Shown: positions 30,618-39,409 of the stretch, one piece after another | Layout of the letters: each line of letters begins with the position of its first letter | Position numbering within the stretch: the stretch's first letter is position 1 | From: Acetatifactor sp. | Lineage (GTDB): Bacteria > Bacillota > Clostridia > Lachnospirales > Lachnospiraceae | Direction: 5' to 3' | Length of the DNA stretch: 64,000 nt | NCBI GenBank assembly: GCA_029055435.1 | Contig: JAIDDH010000074.1 | Span: forward strand, 1 to 64,000 | The notes under the pieces: model-generated | What the model saw: only the letters and a program-made list of their open reading frames with translations | Database searches by the model: none | Told to the model about the DNA's origin: nothing | Program-made: the position numbers and the translations under genes

Positions 30618-31535
30618 ATGAGAGATTTATGTATGGGGGCTATAAGAAAAACAGGATGGGAGCAGAAGGAATTGGAGCACAATGTAAATACGATGCCGAC
30701 GCATATCAGAGTGCGCGGGGCAAGAGTACACAATCTGAAAAATGTTGACGTAGATATCCCGCTGAACAGGATTGTCGGGATAGCAGGGGTGTCCGGTTCC
30801 GGGAAATCTTCTCTGGCACTGGGAATCCTGTATGCGGAGGGCTCTAGGCGATATCTGGAAGCGCTCTCTACATATACAAGAAGGCGTATGACGCAGGCAG
30901 AAAAAGCACAGGTGGATGAGGTGCTGTACGTCCCTGCCGCCCTTGCGCTGAGACAACGGCCCGGTATTCCCGGCATACGCAGCACTTTTGGCACGGGGAC
31001 AGAGCTTTTGAATAGTCTGCGTCTGATGTATTCGAGACTCGCTGAGCATCGCTGCCCGAACGGGCACTATGTAAAGCCCTCCCTGAATGTTGCGGCGGGG
31101 CAGGAGCTTGTATGCCCGGAGTGCGGCGGGCACTTTTTTGCGCCAGGCGCGGAGGAACTGGCTTTTAACAGTCAGGGCGCATGCAGGCGTTGTGACGGGA
31201 CAGGGATAGTTCGGACAGTGGATGAATCGACGCTTGTGCCGGACGAGTCTCTTTCTATCGACCAGGGTGCCGTCGCTCCGTGGCAGACATTGATGTGGTC
31301 TCTTATGAAAGATATTGCTCGTGAAATGGGTGTTCGGACAGATGTGCCCTTTAAGGACCTTACAGAAAAAGAACGGGATATTGTATTCCACGGGCCCGCG
31401 GTTAAGAAAAATATCATCTACCAGAACAAGACCAGCGGAGCTGCGGGAGATATGGATTTTACTTATTTTAATGCAACCTATACCGTGGAAAATGCGCTAT
31501 CCAAGGTGAAGGATGAGAATGGGTTAGTCTGTTAA
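30618..31535 (+). pseudogene. UvrA-like excinuclease ATPase, 5' fragment interrupted by the mobile element
   Basis: IRVRGARVHNLKNVDVDIP, Walker A GVSGSGKSSLAL; stops 12 bp past the insertion junction. The 3' part is at 39410-41086. Confidence 0.92.
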
Positions 31536-31604
31536 GGACAGAGAAAATAAAGATACTGAAAAAGCCGATAAACAGGGCATTTTCGGGGAAAGGAGCAAAT
31601 CTCT

Positions 31605-33299
31605 ATGTCAATCAAAATCACAGCACTTTATGAAAGGCTCTCACGAGATGATGAAATGCAGGGCGAGAGCAACAGCATCAAAAACCAAAAAGAATACCTT
31701 GAGGACTTCGCAAGAAAGAACGGTTTCCGAAATATCCGACACTTTACGGACGACGGAGTAAGCGGCATCACATTCGAGCGTGAGGGATTCCAAAAAATGA
31801 TTGCCGAGGTTGAGGCGGGAAATGTTGATACGGTAATCGTGAAAGATATGAGCAGGTTCGGACGGAACTATCTGAAAGTCGGTTTTTACACAGAGATGTT
31901 GTTCCCCGAAAAAGGCGTGCGGTTTATCGCTATCAATAACGGAGTGGACAGCGAAACGCAGGGCGAGAATGATTTTACCCCGTTCCTCAACATCATGAAT
32001 GAGTGGTACGCAAAGGACACTTCCAAGAAAATCCGCACCATGTTCAAGGCGAAAATGCAGGAGGGGAAAAGAGTTTCCCCAAGTGTTCCCTACGGTTATC
32101 TCCGTGATCCGCATGACAAGCAGCACCTAATCATTGATGAAGAACCCGCAAAGGTTGTCAGACGGATATATCAGATGACGGTTGAGGGGCATGGAAAACG
32201 TGACATAGCAAGGGCACTGACAGCGGATAAGATACTCATTCCTGCCGCTTATGCAGCGGAGCATTGCCCCGAAAATAATCACAGTCATGGATATGCCAAT
32301 CCCTATGAATGGTCTTGCACCGCAATAAGTTATATCCTTGAAAAGCAGGAATACATGGGGCATACTGTTTTAGGCAAGACAGTGACGGATAATTTCAAGA
32401 CCAAAAAGCGCAGGAAAGCAAAACCCGAAGAACTGATGATATTCAAGAACACCCATGACGCAATTGTTGACGAGGAAACATGGAACAATGCGCAAAGGTT
32501 AAAGAGGACTGTCCGCAGGGAAGTCAAGAATGGAACTTATAAGAACCGTCTGACAGGCTTGCTCTATTGTGCCGATTGCGGGGCAAAACTAACCTACCGC
32601 AGTCCCAACGCAACGCACCGTCCCGACGGAAAGACTTATGACAGCGACAATGCCTTTATATGCGGCAGTTACCGCAGTCTGCACCGAGATTGCACCATGC
32701 ACTATATCAAGGTGTCAGTGGTTGAGGAACTAGTAAAAAAGGCAATCCATACCGTCAGCAGTTTCGCCATAGAAAACGAGGAAGAATTTATAAGGCGTTT
32801 GGAGGTGCTTTCAGACTTCCAAGTGGAAACAGCCATAAAGGAAAATAGAAAGGCTCTTTCCACCTCTGAAAGGCGTGTAAAGGAACTTGACGAACTTATC
32901 AGAAAACTCTACGAGGGCAACGCAACGGGGAAGATACCCGACAAGCATTTTGAAAGGCTCTTAGCGGAATATGACAGCGAACAGGGCGAGCTGGAGGGCA
33001 GGATAGAGGAAATCAGAAACAGCATTGCAGAATATGAGAGGAACACCGTCCGCACCGACAAATTCATGGAGGTTGTGAGGAAATACCAAGACTGCGAAGA
33101 AATCACAACGCCAATGCTCAACGAGTTTATCGAGAAGATTGTCGTGCATGAGGCGGACAAAAGCGGAGGCAGGCTGAACAGGAAACAGAAAGTTGACATT
33201 TATTTTAACTTTGTCGGACAGATTGACTTATCCGAACCGATCACGCAGGAGGAAAGCACAGACAAGCCGAAAGGGAAGAAAAAGGCAAAAGTTTCATAG
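31605..33299 (+). CDS. large serine recombinase (resolvase domain, recombinase domain, zinc beta-ribbon, DUF4368-like C-terminus)
   Basis: ALYERLSRDDEMQGESNSIKNQ catalytic region; CADCGAKLTYR zinc ribbon; coiled coil; C-terminal NRKQKVDIYFNFVGQIDL. Confidence 0.96.
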   Translation: MSIKITALYERLSRDDEMQGESNSIKNQKEYLEDFARKNGFRNIRHFTDDGVSGITFEREGFQKMIAEVEAGNVDTVIVKDMSRFGRNYLKVGFYTEMLFPEKGVRFIAINNGVDSETQGENDFTPFLNIMNEWYAKDTSKKIRTMFKAKMQEGKRVSPSVPYGYLRDPHDKQHLIIDEEPAKVVRRIYQMTVEGHGKRDIARALTADKILIPAAYAAEHCPENNHSHGYANPYEWSCTAISYILEKQEYMGHTVLGKTVTDNFKTKKRRKAKPEELMIFKNTHDAIVDEETWNNAQRLKRTVRREVKNGTYKNRLTGLLYCADCGAKLTYRSPNATHRPDGKTYDSDNAFICGSYRSLHRDCTMHYIKVSVVEELVKKAIHTVSSFAIENEEEFIRRLEVLSDFQVETAIKENRKALSTSERRVKELDELIRKLYEGNATGKIPDKHFERLLAEYDSEQGELEGRIEEIRNSIAEYERNTVRTDKFMEVVRKYQDCEEITTPMLNEFIEKIVVHEADKSGGRLNRKQKVDIYFNFVGQIDLSEPITQEESTDKPKGKKKAKVS

Positions 33300-33464
33300 G
33301 AAAAATGGGAAAGGCTATGACGGTAACGGTTATAGTCTTTTTTCTTGCAGTTATAGACGGGCAAAATGAAGTGAAAAAGTGTCAGCAGTAAAATATAGCA
33401 CTCAAGGCATTAAATGCGAAATTTGACCGCCACAGAGTGCTATAACGGTATCATGTGGGGCAGG

Positions 33465-33722
33465 CTATTCTTGAATGTCCAATCCTTCAAAGAAATCGTC
33501 ATAGGTGCAGTCATATATTTTGCGTAATTCCATGAGGACGCTAATCTTGATATTCAGTTCGCCGTTCTCATATTTTGCGTAAGTGGAGCGACCAATATCA
33601 CAGCCACGCTGCTGTAATAAAGCACAGAGTTTTTCTTGTGAAATATTGTGCTTTTCGCGGAGGGCTTTTAGATTGCTGCCGATGTTCCTATCTCTCCGTA
33701 ATTTCTGTTCCATTTGTATCAT
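33465..33722 (-). CDS. XRE family transcriptional regulator
   Basis: HTH: IGSNLKALREKHNISQEKLCALLQQRGCDIGRSTYAKYENGE. Confidence 0.9.
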   Translation of the reverse strand: MIQMEQKLRRDRNIGSNLKALREKHNISQEKLCALLQQRGCDIGRSTYAKYENGELNIKISVLMELRKIYDCTYDDFFEGLDIQE

Positions 33723-33858
33723 CCCTTCTTAGACCAATATTGAGGTCAATACCATTGTAAGAATTTTTCAGTAAAAATATTGTCCGTGATACTGGTCAGA
33801 ATGAAAAAGGAATGATAGAATAACATTTATAATACAAATTTAGAAATGTAGCAGAGGA

Positions 33859-34305
33859 TTGGGTGAAAATATGGAACTGGTCAGAACAGGGGCAAGAGAG
33901 GTCAAATTTTATTTAGACATAGCTTTCATTTCTCAATATGAACTTGATTTTGAAACATTTGAAAAGAGAAAGCCATTTACTGCAAAAATCGTTGATGATT
34001 TGCTGAACCTTGCAAATGAGAAATATGGGTTAGATTTTGATGAATATGACACGCCTAAAGCAGTCTATGTTGCAGAGGATCGTGTGGTAATGGTTTTTGA
34101 AAAAAGAAATCAGGATTACTTTGAAACAGAGGAAAATGAGGAACTGGAGATTATGAAAGGCATTAGAGAAATATTCCGTTTTCTGCCAGACGAAAGGATA
34201 TACTTTGAGAAAATGGAGATTGAGGAAAAAAGAAAGCTGTTAGAAGAAATAAGGAATGACGACAATATGACCTATATCAGAGAAAATTTTATGATGTACG
34301 ATTGA
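33859..34305 (+). CDS. hypothetical element-encoded protein
   Basis: 148-aa ORF with uninterrupted coding character. Confidence 0.6.
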   Translation: MGENMELVRTGAREVKFYLDIAFISQYELDFETFEKRKPFTAKIVDDLLNLANEKYGLDFDEYDTPKAVYVAEDRVVMVFEKRNQDYFETEENEELEIMKGIREIFRFLPDERIYFEKMEIEEKRKLLEEIRNDDNMTYIRENFMMYD

Positions 34306-34320
34306 CAAGGAGGTAAGGGA

Positions 34321-34578
34321 ATGGATTTTATTGCTGGTTTTTTCGGGTGGTTGATAATAGCTTATTTTGCATCAATTCCGTTTATATGGATATGGGTGTT
34401 CTATCATAAAATTAAATGCCGAAAAATAGAGGAATGTAGCAACAGAAAATGTAAGTATTGGCAACATTGTGAGCATAACTATGTCGAGCGTAAGAAAGAC
34501 GAGTTAGAGTTAAGAAAGCAGATGTTGTTACATAGTTTAGGATTAACGGAAGAAGATTTGGACAAAGAATATTCCTAA
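34321..34578 (+). CDS. small membrane-anchored protein with Cys cluster, hypothetical
   Basis: N-terminal TM; CRKIEECSNRKCKYWQHCEHNY; RBS aaggaggtaaggg. Confidence 0.65.
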   Translation: MDFIAGFFGWLIIAYFASIPFIWIWVFYHKIKCRKIEECSNRKCKYWQHCEHNYVERKKDELELRKQMLLHSLGLTEEDLDKEYS

Positions 34579-34608
34579 AAGGAATACGATACGGGGAGAG
34601 GGCATATA

Positions 34609-34682
34609 TTTACAGTCATTATGTGGAAGTATGTTTGCAATCATAAGTGGCATTATGTTTACATTCATTATTTGGCAGATAT
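34609..34682 (+). repeat. three imperfect ~24-25-bp direct repeats
   Basis: TTTACAGTCATTATGTGGAAGTATG / TTTGCAATCATAAGTGGCATTATG / TTTACATTCATTATTTGGCAGATAT in tandem; followed by 2x atatcaatccat. Confidence 0.6.
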
Positions 34683-34815
34683 ATCAATCCATCATATCAA
34701 TCCATTCTTAAGAAAAATTCATTGGAATTATGTATGCTCATATGATAAACTAATGAAGTTGCATAATTTAACAAATCAAAAAAGTTATAGTAATGACTTA
34801 CTGGGAGGTATGTAT

Positions 34816-35355
34816 ATGAGGAAGAATAAAAAGATAGTTATATTAACAGGTATTTTTCTAATGACCTTGAGTATTGTTGCTTGTGGGCAAGTAAAAGAAG
34901 ATGAATTTACTATAAATCAGCAGGAAAGCGATATACAAACTGTTGAGAGTACAGATTCAGAAATAAAAGGAGATGATACCGTAACCACAGAGGAATCTTC
35001 TGCAAATCAGCAGGAAAACAGCACACAGACGGTTGAGAGTATAAATCCAGACACATTTCCTGTTGGAGAATATCATGATGATATGGGTTCTCAGTTGATT
35101 ATCTCCAAGGTTGATGACAAAAACTATACTATAGAATACGGAATATACAAATTAATGTATACGGAAAATGCAGTTGGAAGTTATGATGTCAATACTGGAA
35201 TATTATCTTTTTCTGGAACAGATATCAGCACTGAAAGCACATTATCTGCGGACGTGACAATCCAAGGGAATAATCTGATAGTTACATTAACAAATTCTGA
35301 ATTTCCAGACTGTCCGACAGGAACAGTTTTTGAATTTGAACCTAGTCAACCATGA
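34816..35355 (+). CDS. lipoprotein, hypothetical
   Basis: Lipobox LSIVACGQ; internal repeat NQQES..QTVES / NQQEN..QTVES; start placed at ATG 34816. Confidence 0.7.
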   Translation: MRKNKKIVILTGIFLMTLSIVACGQVKEDEFTINQQESDIQTVESTDSEIKGDDTVTTEESSANQQENSTQTVESINPDTFPVGEYHDDMGSQLIISKVDDKNYTIEYGIYKLMYTENAVGSYDVNTGILSFSGTDISTESTLSADVTIQGNNLIVTLTNSEFPDCPTGTVFEFEPSQP

Positions 35356-35410
35356 TAAAAATATTTGGTTTCTATAAGGAATTGTAAAAAACTGAAAATT
35401 GTTTACCTTT

Positions 35411-35451
35411 AGGTAGCGATTATCTTAACAGAAAATCAGCTACCTTTTTTA
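35411..35451 (+). terminator. intrinsic terminator
   Basis: AGGTAGC ... GCTACCT followed by TTTTT. Confidence 0.7.
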
Positions 35452-35497
35452 TTACCAGTAACTATCAACTTATCACAGAAAGAATGAGGTATCGGAA

Positions 35498-35839
35498 ATG
35501 ATTGAGAACAAGCAGGAAGTCAGTAAAGATTTAGAAAAAGCATTACAGGCATTGGAGCAGGCAAAACAGCGTGTAGCAAACGAAAAGAAAAAACAGAACG
35601 AGAAGAAACGCAAAGCCGAGAACCACCACAAGTATATCATGGGTGGCATTATCGTGAAGTATTTCCCCGACTGTTACAACTTTGACGAGGACGAGTTGAA
35701 CCGTATATTATCAGTGGCATTACAGACAAAGGAGTGTCAGCAGATTATATCTAAAATCAAGTCGGAAAGCCGAGAAACCACTCCCCCACAATCCACTGTC
35801 CCCAATGCCGAAAATGAAAGCGAGGGCGATACGGAATGA
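35498..35839 (+). CDS. DUF3847-like protein
   Basis: NEKKRKAENHHKYIMGGIIVKYFPDCYNFDEDELNRIL; typical neighbour of MobA/MobL. Confidence 0.75.
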   Translation: MIENKQEVSKDLEKALQALEQAKQRVANEKKKQNEKKRKAENHHKYIMGGIIVKYFPDCYNFDEDELNRILSVALQTKECQQIISKIKSESRETTPPQSTVPNAENESEGDTE

Positions 35840-35876
35840 CGAGGGCAACGGAACTGAAAAGCCGAGGTAACGTATT

Positions 35877-36083
35877 CACCCCGTTTACGGGGTGCGCACA
35901 GATATACCACCAGAGGTGGTATGTGCGCTCTCCGAGGGGCAAGTTTCACTTGCATGGACTCTTGCAGAGGGCGTTGTCTGTCTTGCGACAGCCAAAAGGG
36001 GAAACGACAATTCCCCTTCGCAAGCTGCGCTTGCTACCCTTTAGTGAACTTTGCGTTCAGACAAAAGCCAAAGTGCGGCTTTT
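35877..36083 (+). repeat. array of eight consecutive stem-loops (candidate oriT structure or structured RNA)
   Basis: Stems read directly: 35877-35894, 35894-35928, 35939-35953, 35959-35969, 35978-35991, 35996-36018, 36020-36034, 36063-36083. Confidence 0.75.
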
Positions 36084-36103
36084 ATCTGCCCACAAAGTCT
36101 ATG

Positions 36104-36113
36104 AGTGCGCCCC
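36104..36113 (+). other. candidate oriT nick region
   Basis: ATGAGTGCGCCCCA resembles the RSF1010/pIP501/pGO1-type MOBQ nic consensus (TAAGTGCGCCCT); ~25 bp upstream of the relaxase start. Confidence 0.55.
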
Positions 36114-36136
36114 ACTACCCTGTCGGCAGAATGTAG

Positions 36137-37720
36137 GTGTTGTATATGGGTAGTGTCACGAAACAGGCAAGCACACGTTTTTCCATAGTCAAGCGGAGCA
36201 AGGGGCAGTCAGCGGTTGAGAAAGCGTCCTATATCAGCAGGAGCATTCTTGTGAGCGAATATGACGGGCAGACCTACCGCCCCAAATACCATGAAGATTT
36301 AGTACACAGTGAAATCTCTCTCCCACCCAATGCGCCCAAAGAATATGCAGACCGAGCCACCTTATGGAACGCTGTTGAACTGTCAGAGAAAGGGCAGAAA
36401 TCACAGCTTGCAAGAATGTTAAAAGCGTCACTCCCCAACGATTGGAGTTATGAGCTTGCGGAGGAAGTCGTGAGGGATTATGTGCAGCGGAATTTTGTTG
36501 ACAAGGGAATGTGTGCGGATTGGGCGATCCATGACAGCGAGAACGACAAAGGACAGCGTAATCTCCATATCCATGTTTTACTAACCATGCGCCCTATCAC
36601 TGAAAACGGGGAATGGGGAGCAAAGACCAAAAAGGTTTACATCTTTGATGAAAATGGGGAGCGTGTTCCCCTTATTGACAAAAAGACAGGTCAGCAGAAA
36701 GTGGATAATCGTAACCGCAAACAGTGGAAATGTCAGACCGTAGAAAGCACTGATTGGAACAGCCAAGAAAACGCCAAGATGTGGCGGAAAGATTTAGCCG
36801 ACACAATCAATGCCACCAATGAGCGGTTGGGGATTGATGTCCATTGGGAACACCGTTCTTTTAAGGAACAGGGAATAGATAAAGAGCCGACGATCCATAT
36901 CGGGGCAACTGCCAATGCTTTAGAGCGCAAGGGCATACAGACCGAGAGGGGAAACATTAATCGGGAAATCGTCAGGCGCAACATGATGTTGGAACAGGCA
37001 AAGGCAATGCTTGAACTTGCCAAGCAGGAAGTACAGAGCATACAGTATGCCAAGATTAGAAATGCGGCAGTCAGCGTGAAGAATGAAGTCCTTGAAATGA
37101 TTGCGAAAGTGGCGAAACGTAAAGGCAGACTTGATTTGCCGATTGTCAGCGGAAAGCACCTAAGAAAAATATCCGACAGAACCGCCTTGCAGTCAGCCGA
37201 CAATGCAGAGAAGTTTATCACCACAAGGAAGATAGACAGTTTTGAGAGCCTTGCGAAATTCACAGCAGATATGGAACAGAAATACGGACAGCTTGACAGC
37301 GTACATTTATCAAAGGGGCAGAAACTAAGCCGACTAAAGGAACTGTCAAAAATGTATGCCCTTTATGAGCCATACCGCACCACCTACAAAGAGAGCCAGT
37401 CACTAAAAGGAATTGCAAAAATGAAGTTTGACAAGGAACATAAAGAGAGCCTTGCCAAATATCCCGAAAAGCGTGAGCGGTTGCAGAACCTTTTGGAGCA
37501 GGGCGAGAAGATAACACCGAAACAGTGGAAAGCGGAAATACAATCCTTGCAAAGTGAGTATGACAGTATCAGCAGAGAAAAGTCAAGGACTGCCACAGAG
37601 TTAGCGTATGCCGAGGTAATCAGCTATAACAAGAAAAACCTTGAAAGGGAACTTCAGAACGAGAGCCGACAGCATAACAGGCAACAGAGCAGGACTAAGC
37701 GGAGGGAGGAAGAAATTTAA
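36137..37720 (+). CDS. MobA/MobL family relaxase
   Basis: SIVKRSKGQSAVEKASYISRS; HIHVLLTMRPI histidine motif; GTG 36137 or ATG 36146 start. Confidence 0.93.
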   Translation: MLYMGSVTKQASTRFSIVKRSKGQSAVEKASYISRSILVSEYDGQTYRPKYHEDLVHSEISLPPNAPKEYADRATLWNAVELSEKGQKSQLARMLKASLPNDWSYELAEEVVRDYVQRNFVDKGMCADWAIHDSENDKGQRNLHIHVLLTMRPITENGEWGAKTKKVYIFDENGERVPLIDKKTGQQKVDNRNRKQWKCQTVESTDWNSQENAKMWRKDLADTINATNERLGIDVHWEHRSFKEQGIDKEPTIHIGATANALERKGIQTERGNINREIVRRNMMLEQAKAMLELAKQEVQSIQYAKIRNAAVSVKNEVLEMIAKVAKRKGRLDLPIVSGKHLRKISDRTALQSADNAEKFITTRKIDSFESLAKFTADMEQKYGQLDSVHLSKGQKLSRLKELSKMYALYEPYRTTYKESQSLKGIAKMKFDKEHKESLAKYPEKRERLQNLLEQGEKITPKQWKAEIQSLQSEYDSISREKSRTATELAYAEVISYNKKNLERELQNESRQHNRQQSRTKRREEEI

Positions 37721-37800
37721 TGGAAATGTGATAGAAATATAAGCGTGATAGTGGTATTATATTAACGGCAGAAATAAAGAGTTTAGGAGATATTAGTAAA

Positions 37801-38565
37801 GTGAAAGATTGGTTTACAGTCGAAAAGATTGATACTGATACATTTGCAATCAGTGAGTATGGACATTGGGAGGAAACCCATTGTTATTTGCTATGTGGTA
37901 CTGAAAAGGCAGTTTTAATTGACACTGGTTTAGGAATTGCGAATATTAAAAAGATTATTGACAGTTTGACAACACTTCCCATTATGGTTATAACAACACA
38001 TATACATTGGGATCACATTGGAGGACATAAATATTTTGATAATATTGCGGTCTATGAAACAGAAAAAGATTGGTTGTCTGTCAAATTTCCGATACCATTA
38101 CAAGAAGTAAAGTACAATCTTATGTGCAAGCCCTGCGAATTTCCACCGAATTTTGATATAGCTAATTATCAAATTTTTCAGGGAATACCACAAAGGATTT
38201 TAGGGGACAGAGATTGCATAGATTTAGGAAATAGGAATTTGACTGTCATTCACACACCCGGACACTCTCCGGGGCATTGCTGTTTCTATGAGCCAGAAAG
38301 AAAGTATTTATTTTCGGGCGATTTAATATATAGCGGTTGCCTTGACGCTTTTTATCCAACAACCGACCCATTCCTTTTTTGGCAATCAGTTAAAAAAGTG
38401 AAATCTTTGGAGATAAAGCGACTTTTGCCTGCACACCATCAGCTTAATATTTCAGTTGGCATAATTGGGAGGATTGAGAAAGCCTTTAGCGAATTATCCG
38501 ACAAGGGATTGTTAATGCAGGGGGCTGGTATATACGATTTTGAAGATTTTCAAATTCATATTTGA
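37801..38565 (+). CDS. MBL-fold metallo-hydrolase
   Basis: THIHWDHIGGH, HTPGHSPGHCCFY, FSGDLIYSG motifs; GTG start. Confidence 0.93.
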   Translation: MKDWFTVEKIDTDTFAISEYGHWEETHCYLLCGTEKAVLIDTGLGIANIKKIIDSLTTLPIMVITTHIHWDHIGGHKYFDNIAVYETEKDWLSVKFPIPLQEVKYNLMCKPCEFPPNFDIANYQIFQGIPQRILGDRDCIDLGNRNLTVIHTPGHSPGHCCFYEPERKYLFSGDLIYSGCLDAFYPTTDPFLFWQSVKKVKSLEIKRLLPAHHQLNISVGIIGRIEKAFSELSDKGLLMQGAGIYDFEDFQIHI

Positions 38566-38615
38566 ATGAAAAACACTTTCACAGGTCAGAAAATTGATTG
38601 TTGGAGGAAAAGCAC

Positions 38616-39029
38616 ATGGAATATAAAGAAAATGCGTTACACTATGAGGATTATTGCAGGTTAAGGGAGAGTGTTGAGTGGTTGCTTTTTTCAAAAGAGC
38701 AGACCCAAAAAGCTCTTGACAATAGTCTGTACACAATAATTGCAGTTGATGATAATCAGACTGTTGGAATGGGACGATTGATTGGTGACGGAATGTACTA
38801 TATGATAGCTGATATTGTGGTACAGCCGAATTATCAGAGACAGGGTATTGGCAATAAAATTGTCAGTATGATAATTGAATATGTCGATAAGACAACACCA
38901 GTCGGCGGACGTTCCACTATACAGTTGATTGCAGAAAAAGGAAAAGAAACATTTTATGAGAAAATGGGATTTAAAATAATCCCACATGAATTTTGTGGTT
39001 CTGGTATGAGGAAAGTCATTCGTAAGTAA
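38616..39029 (+). CDS. GNAT family N-acetyltransferase
   Basis: VVQPNYQRQGIGNKIVSMIIEYV acetyl-CoA motif; C-terminal FYEKMGFK. Confidence 0.92.
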   Translation: MEYKENALHYEDYCRLRESVEWLLFSKEQTQKALDNSLYTIIAVDDNQTVGMGRLIGDGMYYMIADIVVQPNYQRQGIGNKIVSMIIEYVDKTTPVGGRSTIQLIAEKGKETFYEKMGFKIIPHEFCGSGMRKVIRK

Positions 39030-39090
39030 GATGTGATTTAACAGCTAACAATTATCACAATCACAACAGAATAAGTATCACAGCGTCAGA

Positions 39091-39123
39091 GCGTATAGAA
39101 AATCAGTCTATGCGCTTTTTTTC
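39091..39123 (+). terminator. intrinsic terminator
   Basis: GCGTATAGA-aaatcag-TCTATGCGC-TTTTTTT. Confidence 0.75.
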
Positions 39124-39140
39124 ATGTAAAGGAGCAGAGA

Positions 39141-39317
39141 ATGAAGAAAGCAGACAGCACCAAGAGGGCGCAGGAAAAGCGCAGGGGATTTACTAAGAAA
39201 ATAGGCAACACCACCTATGACGTATCATTTCATTACAGCCGACAGAGCAGGGAAAGCATGAACGATAAAATTATCCGTCTGATAGAAAACGATATGCAGG
39301 GCATGAAAAAGAACTGA
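39141..39317 (+). CDS. TnpW-like transposon-encoded small protein (58 aa, below the track cutoff)
   Basis: MKKADSTKRAQEKRRGFTKKIGNTTYDVSFHYSRQSRESMNDKIIRLIENDMQGMKKN; RBS aaaggagcagaga. Confidence 0.75.
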   Translation: MKKADSTKRAQEKRRGFTKKIGNTTYDVSFHYSRQSRESMNDKIIRLIENDMQGMKKN

Positions 39318-39409
39318 ATATGTGTATTGCGGGAGTGCTTGAAAACACTGGATTTTCGGGCATTTTTTAATATCTTTCATTATGTCCTTGACAAATCGTT
39401 CTGAAGGGG

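Follow-up and report, generated by a model that had tools for sequence, protein, structure and literature searches.

In the leading region of the F plasmid, single-stranded DNA promoters (Frpo) and ssi sites are hairpins that act on the transferred strand and enter the recipient first. The nic site of the plasmid pSK41, which we take to be experimentally established, reads CCCGTAAGG/GCGCACTTAT-GCGAACG-TTC-CGTTCGC in the same sense as its MobA/MobL gene, a slash marking here and below the position of the cut. The MOBQ nic consensus is NWACCNNTAAGTGCGCCCTYNN (PMC3832669), and the origin of transfer (oriT) of RSF1010 comprises about 38 bp (PMC5789077). Few integrative mobilizable elements have an oriT with a mapped nick (PMC5704250). 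The single-strand origins (ssos) of rolling-circle plasmids and sso1 of ICEBs1 are intergenic, about 200 bp long and form several stem-loops, three in ICEBs1 sso1, on the strand that becomes single, adjoining the relaxase gene (PMC4595007). Next to the oriT of the mobilizable island SGI1 lies a conserved non-coding region which gives rise to an RNA with mapped transcripts, sgm-sRNA (PMC9299015).

The window analysed here, a stretch of 64,000 nucleotides from Acetatifactor sp. (Lachnospiraceae), contains an element of about 7.9 kb that comprises genes for a large serine recombinase, an HTH protein, a DUF3847-like protein and a MobA/MobL relaxase (mobA) as well as cargo genes. The element appears to interrupt a UvrA-like ABC-ATPase gene, the halves of which (from 30618; up to 41086) read through as SKVKDE followed by GMKRVEKF, with junctions at about 31519 and 39406. 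Its main features are:

31519 to 39406, no strand assigned: integrative mobilizable element, approximate extent, sitting in the UvrA-like gene, the halves of which suggest its boundary
31605 to 33299, plus strand: large serine recombinase of the DUF4368 type (Pfam)
35498 to 35839, plus strand: gene of a DUF3847-like small protein, the cassette partner (PF12958, E 1.3e-4, under the gathering score)
36146 to 37720, plus strand: mobA, a MobQ/MobA_MobL relaxase gene (PF03389, E 1.4e-71)

The relaxase scores 197.2 bits against the NCBIfam MobQ model NF041496, just under the cut-off of 200, and by sequence it matches a single PDB entry, the staphylococcal nicking enzyme 4HT4 (E 6.9e-15), which is NES of pLW1043, a MOBQ relaxase (PMC6856555). 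Together with the Pfam match, this places a cognate MOBQ relaxase near the oriT. In nearly every relative that was read, a DUF3847-like ORF stands before the cassette; a search of open-licence papers found no literature on DUF3847 together with a relaxase. Near the element's right boundary, a small ORF (39141-39317, beginning MKKADSTKRAQEKRRGFTKKIGNTTYDVSFHYSRQ) without NCBIfam match occupies the place where the related element L083 has a TnpW-family gene, and a terminator-like stem, GGTAGC with GCTACC followed by a T-run, lies upstream of the DUF3847 gene (35411-35450).

Between the DUF3847-like gene and mobA, a preliminary description had listed eight hairpins, and every listed arm is indeed present in the sequence where it had been placed. 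That these hairpins are real and far above chance is confirmed: compared with dinucleotide shuffles under RNA parameters, the 321-nt region reaches z-scores of -5.2 on the plus and -7.4 on the minus strand, with none of 100 shuffles as good, and the window and ten segmented relatives range from -4 to -12 with RNA and DNA parameters. The hairpins are, however, two objects and not one, an oriT formed by H1 and H2 (35877-35928) and a DNA hairpin array formed by H3 to H8 (35939-36098):

35877 to 35894, minus strand: H1, CACCCCG and CGGGGTG, at the 5' end of the predicted transferred strand (T-strand), beginning at nic
35893 to 35903, minus strand: predicted nic, 5'-ATCTGTGCGC/A-3', cut between 35894 and 35893
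35904 to 35922, minus strand: inner inverted repeat of H2, ATACCACC-AGA-GGTGGTAT, predicted relaxase recognition hairpin with the nic spacing of pSK41
35922 to 35928, minus strand: outer 3' arm of H2, TGTGCGC, complementary to the nic core
35939 to 35953, minus strand: H3, GCAAGT-TTC-ACTTGC, optional module found in most close relatives
35959 to 35969, minus strand: H4, CTCT-TGC-AGAG, with the loop GCA on the T-strand
35974 to 35995, minus strand: H5, TTGTCTGTC-TTGC-GACAGCCAA, covarying
35996 to 36018, minus strand: H6, AAGGGGAA-ACGACAA-TTCCCCTT, covarying
36020 to 36034, minus strand: H7, GCAAGC-TGC-GCTTGC, variable module, in relatives swapped for unrelated hairpins or nearly lost
36034 to 36051, minus strand: conserved T-strand motif AAGTTCACTAAAGGGTAG, between H8 and H7
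36048 to 36098, minus strand: H8, long imperfect hairpin with two 22-nt arms of 82 % complementarity; the eighth hairpin as first described is present but is only its tip

An ORF of 105 codons across the region (35836-36153) had been suspected to be an artefact, rightly so: its variable sites fall on the three codon positions as 21/21/20, compared with 20/8/63 for mobA in the same loci. It was rejected as a protein for want of a codon signal, and its reading frame differs in distant relatives.

H1 and H2 very probably constitute a MOBQ oriT, nic included. The nic site lies at the junction of the two hairpins, where the preliminary description had not seen it. Read in the sense of the relaxase gene, the window has CGTTTACGGGGT/GCGCACAGAT-ATACCACC-AGA-GGTGGTAT, and the layout is that of pSK41, i.e., nic, spacer, inverted repeat and relaxase gene; in both, the distance from repeat to cut is 10 nt and the repeat lies 5' of nic on the nicked strand. 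Because position, spacing and orientation agree with pSK41, the nicked strand is predicted to be the minus strand, 5'-ATCTGTGCGC/ACCCC. The resemblance in relaxase family, nic sequence, 5' inverted repeat, spacing and orientation to the relaxase gene extends to the NES-type plasmids pSK41, pGO1 and pLW1043 and to the RSF1010 oriT; a search of the plasmid collection for the RSF1010 oriT sequence and accession did not find it. In contrast to the window, the stretch of pSK41 that was read holds no comparable array between repeat and gene, and the RSF1010 oriT spans about 38 bp. Within the nic core TAAGTGCGC/CCT, GTGCGC is invariant in the window and its near relatives, and four class-level relatives (L116, L118, L125 and L127) carry exactly both the full core and the pSK41 nic, ATAAGTGCGC/CCTT. 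The window itself has the variant ATCTGTGCGC/ACC, with an A instead of the consensus C after the cut.

Other candidates were discarded. A plus-strand nic at H2, TGTGCGC/TCTCC, conflicts with pSK41, in which nicking falls on the strand antisense to the relaxase gene. Another nic-like string, GAGTGCGCCCC, stands on the plus strand just behind H8 (36103-36113); it varies in close relatives and is absent in distant ones, and a nic within it at 36105 was dropped on these grounds (absent in L083, L079 and L060). A repeat that might mask the start codon (36113-36120 with 36148-36155) is not maintained in relatives.

Eighty relatives of the relaxase, mostly from Lachnospiraceae, were fetched. Close relatives show paired changes, such as CTCT with AGAG becoming CTCC with GGAG, or CTGTC with GACAG becoming CTGCC with GGCAG, and whole hairpins are gained, lost or swapped as units. 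In 11 divergent elements, segmented by hand (L100 and L102 imperfectly in H2) and non-independent as samples, stem sequences are largely replaced while 563 of 603 pair cells are Watson-Crick; G.T accounts for 7 cells and A.C for 8. Arms pair with their own partners at 85–100 % in H1, the inner part of H2, H5, H6 and the inner part of H8, compared with an average of 40–64 % when arms are re-dealt, and none of 1000 reshuffles reaches the own value. The 11 distinct H1 stem sequences in 18 segmented elements are all perfectly complementary (re-dealt arms average 44 %, 0/1000), H5 has 13 distinct stems (0/1000), H6 is Watson-Crick in 85/85 pair cells of the 11 elements (0/1000), and the inner stem of H8 has seven distinct sequences (0/1000). 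H4, one of the hairpins first listed, is weak taken alone, yet it is kept by covariation, with 44/44 pair cells Watson-Crick and an invariant TGC loop in 11/11 segmented elements. H3 stands in the window as listed but is missing in distant relatives and in L003, L006, L022, L026 and L044. By hand-segmented elements and arm reshuffles, pairing is maintained by compensatory change across Clostridia.

The same arrangement turns up in searches by pattern. The 5' arm pattern of H2 matches in 11 of 392 genomes of the order, with none from the reversed control pattern among the matches listed for the same genomes; the nine new loci have the same architecture of small ORF, H1, H2 and array, and a MobA/MobL-type ORF is listed in all of them except L105. 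When 391 genomes of the class were searched with a covariance model of H1 and H2, 18 gave matches. When 28 of its loci were read back, 27 carried a MobA/MobL relaxase match, and on 21 distinct model matches none of 500 reshuffles reaches the own pairing of H1 and H2.

Among the 81 fetched relaxase loci, 19 lack the exact 5' arm of H2, some being contig ends and some chimeras; L002 and L063 retain only H7-H8 or H8. In these two, and in L090, L094 and L096, the head or tail of the array is joined to unrelated sequence, as if at a recombination breakpoint. L083 (NZ_CP085731.1, 27247-38284) is a related clostridial-type element on a plasmid, with the array present in this copy and aph(2'')-IIa and aac(6')-Im (aminoglycoside resistance) in the annotation of NZ_CP085731.1. 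Related elements also occur on NZ_CP070578.1, NZ_CP070596.1 and NZ_CP070545.1, the hosts across this set being Klebsiella pneumoniae and Citrobacter freundii with their plasmids. In the window, within 35993-36042, the C-rich CCCTTT that follows H7 is similar to the 3' arm of H6 and varies along with H6 in relatives (CCCCC where H6 has GGGGG); this co-change suggests that an alternative pairing or a third strand may be involved.

The position of the array follows the nic and not the gene. When 200 nt on each side of the nic site were scored with DNA parameters, the 20 loci having the relaxase gene on the 3'-OH side gave a median z of -6.30 on that side, against +0.41 on the other. Five loci, each from a different genome (L131, L133, L136, L122 and L130), have the nic-array cassette turned round with genes of the same two kinds flanking it, giving the order small ORF, array, H2-nic-H1 and relaxase in the T-strand sense, with the relaxase gene on the T-strand 5' side. 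The array nevertheless stays on the 3'-OH side in the three that were scored (z -5.55 in L131, -3.95 in L122 and -2.78 in L130), the 5' side of L122 being also somewhat structured (-2.85). The T-strand motif AAGTNCAC-n-RGGGGTAG, 5' of nic and between H8 and the inner hairpins, is present in most array-bearing loci, the opposite-orientation L122 included; its regular expression missed L131 and L130, where GTTCACAGGGGT and GTACACAGGGGT are seen by eye, and it is absent from L119 and L124, the hairpins of which are different. As L115, L121 and L128 possess the nic while the array is missing, the array is not universally needed.

Which strand folds can be approached through stability. Under DNA parameters, the T-strand folds more stably in 11/11 elements, mostly because of H8 (9/9) and H5 (9/11), and stem-loop structure, a hallmark of sso and ssi sites, is found on the transferred strand. 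The conserved internal loop of H8 reads C.A, G-C, T.C, T.C on the plus and T.G, G-C, G.A, G.A on the minus strand. Mismatch cells favour the minus strand by 41 to 13, though distinct states number only 16 to 10, which is not significant (p = 0.33), and the count of G.T against A.C alone leaves the strand undecided. On the T-strand the H4 loop is GCA in 11/11 elements; GNA triloops are unusually stable in DNA. The share of G.T pairs, about 1 % of cells (7/603), is below that expected of RNA helices. We regard it as probable that H3 to H8, which lie at the 3' end of the T-strand, the last to be transferred, act as single-stranded DNA of that strand.

A best explanation can be offered, with confidence a little better than even, in which a MOBQ oriT is joined to a single-strand origin of a new kind, where synthesis of the complementary strand would start. 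By homology, MobA would bind the inverted repeat of H2 and nick the minus strand between 35894 and 35893. The T-strand would begin with H1 and leave 5' first through the DUF3847 gene; the last part to reach the recipient would be mobA, followed by H8 to H3 and finally by H2 with the 3' end (for a general scheme of the process, see PMC5714925). Once single-stranded, H8 to H3 would fold into a row of DNA hairpins around AAGTNCAC-n-RGGGGTAG. This row would most likely serve as an sso, recruiting host primase or RNA polymerase, with the complementary strand primed there; sso1 of ICEBs1, beside its relaxase gene, is a precedent (PMC4595007). As priming would adjoin the 3' end, one primer could copy nearly the whole T-strand, and it would act only after nearly complete transfer or displacement. 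The suggestion of the preliminary description that the region is an extended oriT or a single-strand origin for the transferred strand is thus the reading that the data support, with the nic now located and the minus strand as the predicted transferred strand.

An array that does not prime, next to the same oriT, could be a structural cap protecting the T-strand 3' end from exonucleases, an end-of-transfer mark, or a relaxosome platform (e.g., for the DUF3847 protein) helping second cleavage and recircularisation. The hairpins do adjoin the H2 repeat on the 3'-OH side, and modules that come and go while pairing counts for more than stem identity would suit such a role; a pure cap, however, needs neither a conserved unpaired motif nor an invariant H4 loop, and MOBQ oriTs such as that of RSF1010 function with about 38 bp (PMC5789077), which makes this a rather unlikely account. 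Less likely still is a structured RNA, be it a plus-strand 5' leader of mobA, akin to the multi-stem regulator of mobA first proposed, or an independent minus-strand small RNA needed for mobilization. Strong folding on both strands under RNA parameters and the sRNA encoded beside the oriT of SGI1 (PMC9299015) speak for it, and the SGI1 region resembles ours in being conserved, non-coding and adjacent to the oriT of a mobilizable island. Yet sgm-sRNA is a transcript, while polarity here follows the nic; a mobA leader is disfavoured because in the flipped loci the array keeps to the 3' end of the T-strand and not to the side of the relaxase gene, so that a leader there would contain its opposite strand or none of it. 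G.U pairs are almost lacking, only about 10–40 nt separate the DUF3847 stop codon from H1, and an Rfam search of the region gave no model match up to E = 1.

Palindromes that act while the DNA is double-stranded, whether by forming cruciforms or as barriers or terminators that insulate mobA transcription, would account for the perfect palindromy, in which G.T and A.C exceptions are about equally rare, and for terminator-like stems in some relatives (L090). Such a role is nonetheless very improbable given an order and polarity fixed relative to nic, mismatch cells leaning to one strand, and most stems having no T-tract after them. The recombination substrate that had also been considered finds no direct support. 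On balance, sso activity of the array remains somewhat the better bet.

Compared with the ssos of rolling-circle plasmids and ICEBs1 sso1, to which it is alike in intergenic position, length of about 200 bp and multiple stem-loops next to the relaxase gene, the array differs in standing immediately 5' of the nic of a MOBQ element, in its larger number of hairpins and in stem sequences that are free to change. The plasmid collection yielded no similarity to plasmid ssos or other plasmid families. Nor is the CS-6 motif (TAGCGt/a) conserved, being seen by eye only in L079/L104-like elements; not every sso type has CS-6. From the Frpo and ssi hairpins, which also lie on the transferred strand, the array differs in that it would enter last. 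No description of it appears among the listed titles and abstracts of open-licence papers on oriT, stem-loops and ssDNA, an absence that is no proof of novelty. As a tentative proposal, at somewhat less than even confidence, it may represent a new class of ssDNA element, widespread among clostridial MOBQ elements, defined by structure and tolerant of sequence, whose interchangeable hairpin modules surround a single short motif and which primes the trailing part of the T-strand, or protects it, by a route different from that of known sso or ssi sites.

Little work has addressed the way in which the mobilizable elements of gut Clostridia restore the second strand once they have been transferred. 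The region provides an exact nic prediction and a compact candidate for strand conversion, for which the array-less and flipped relatives are natural controls. Klebsiella and Citrobacter plasmids carry a relative that has aminoglycoside resistance genes. The region would also be a case where covariation marks single-stranded DNA and not RNA.
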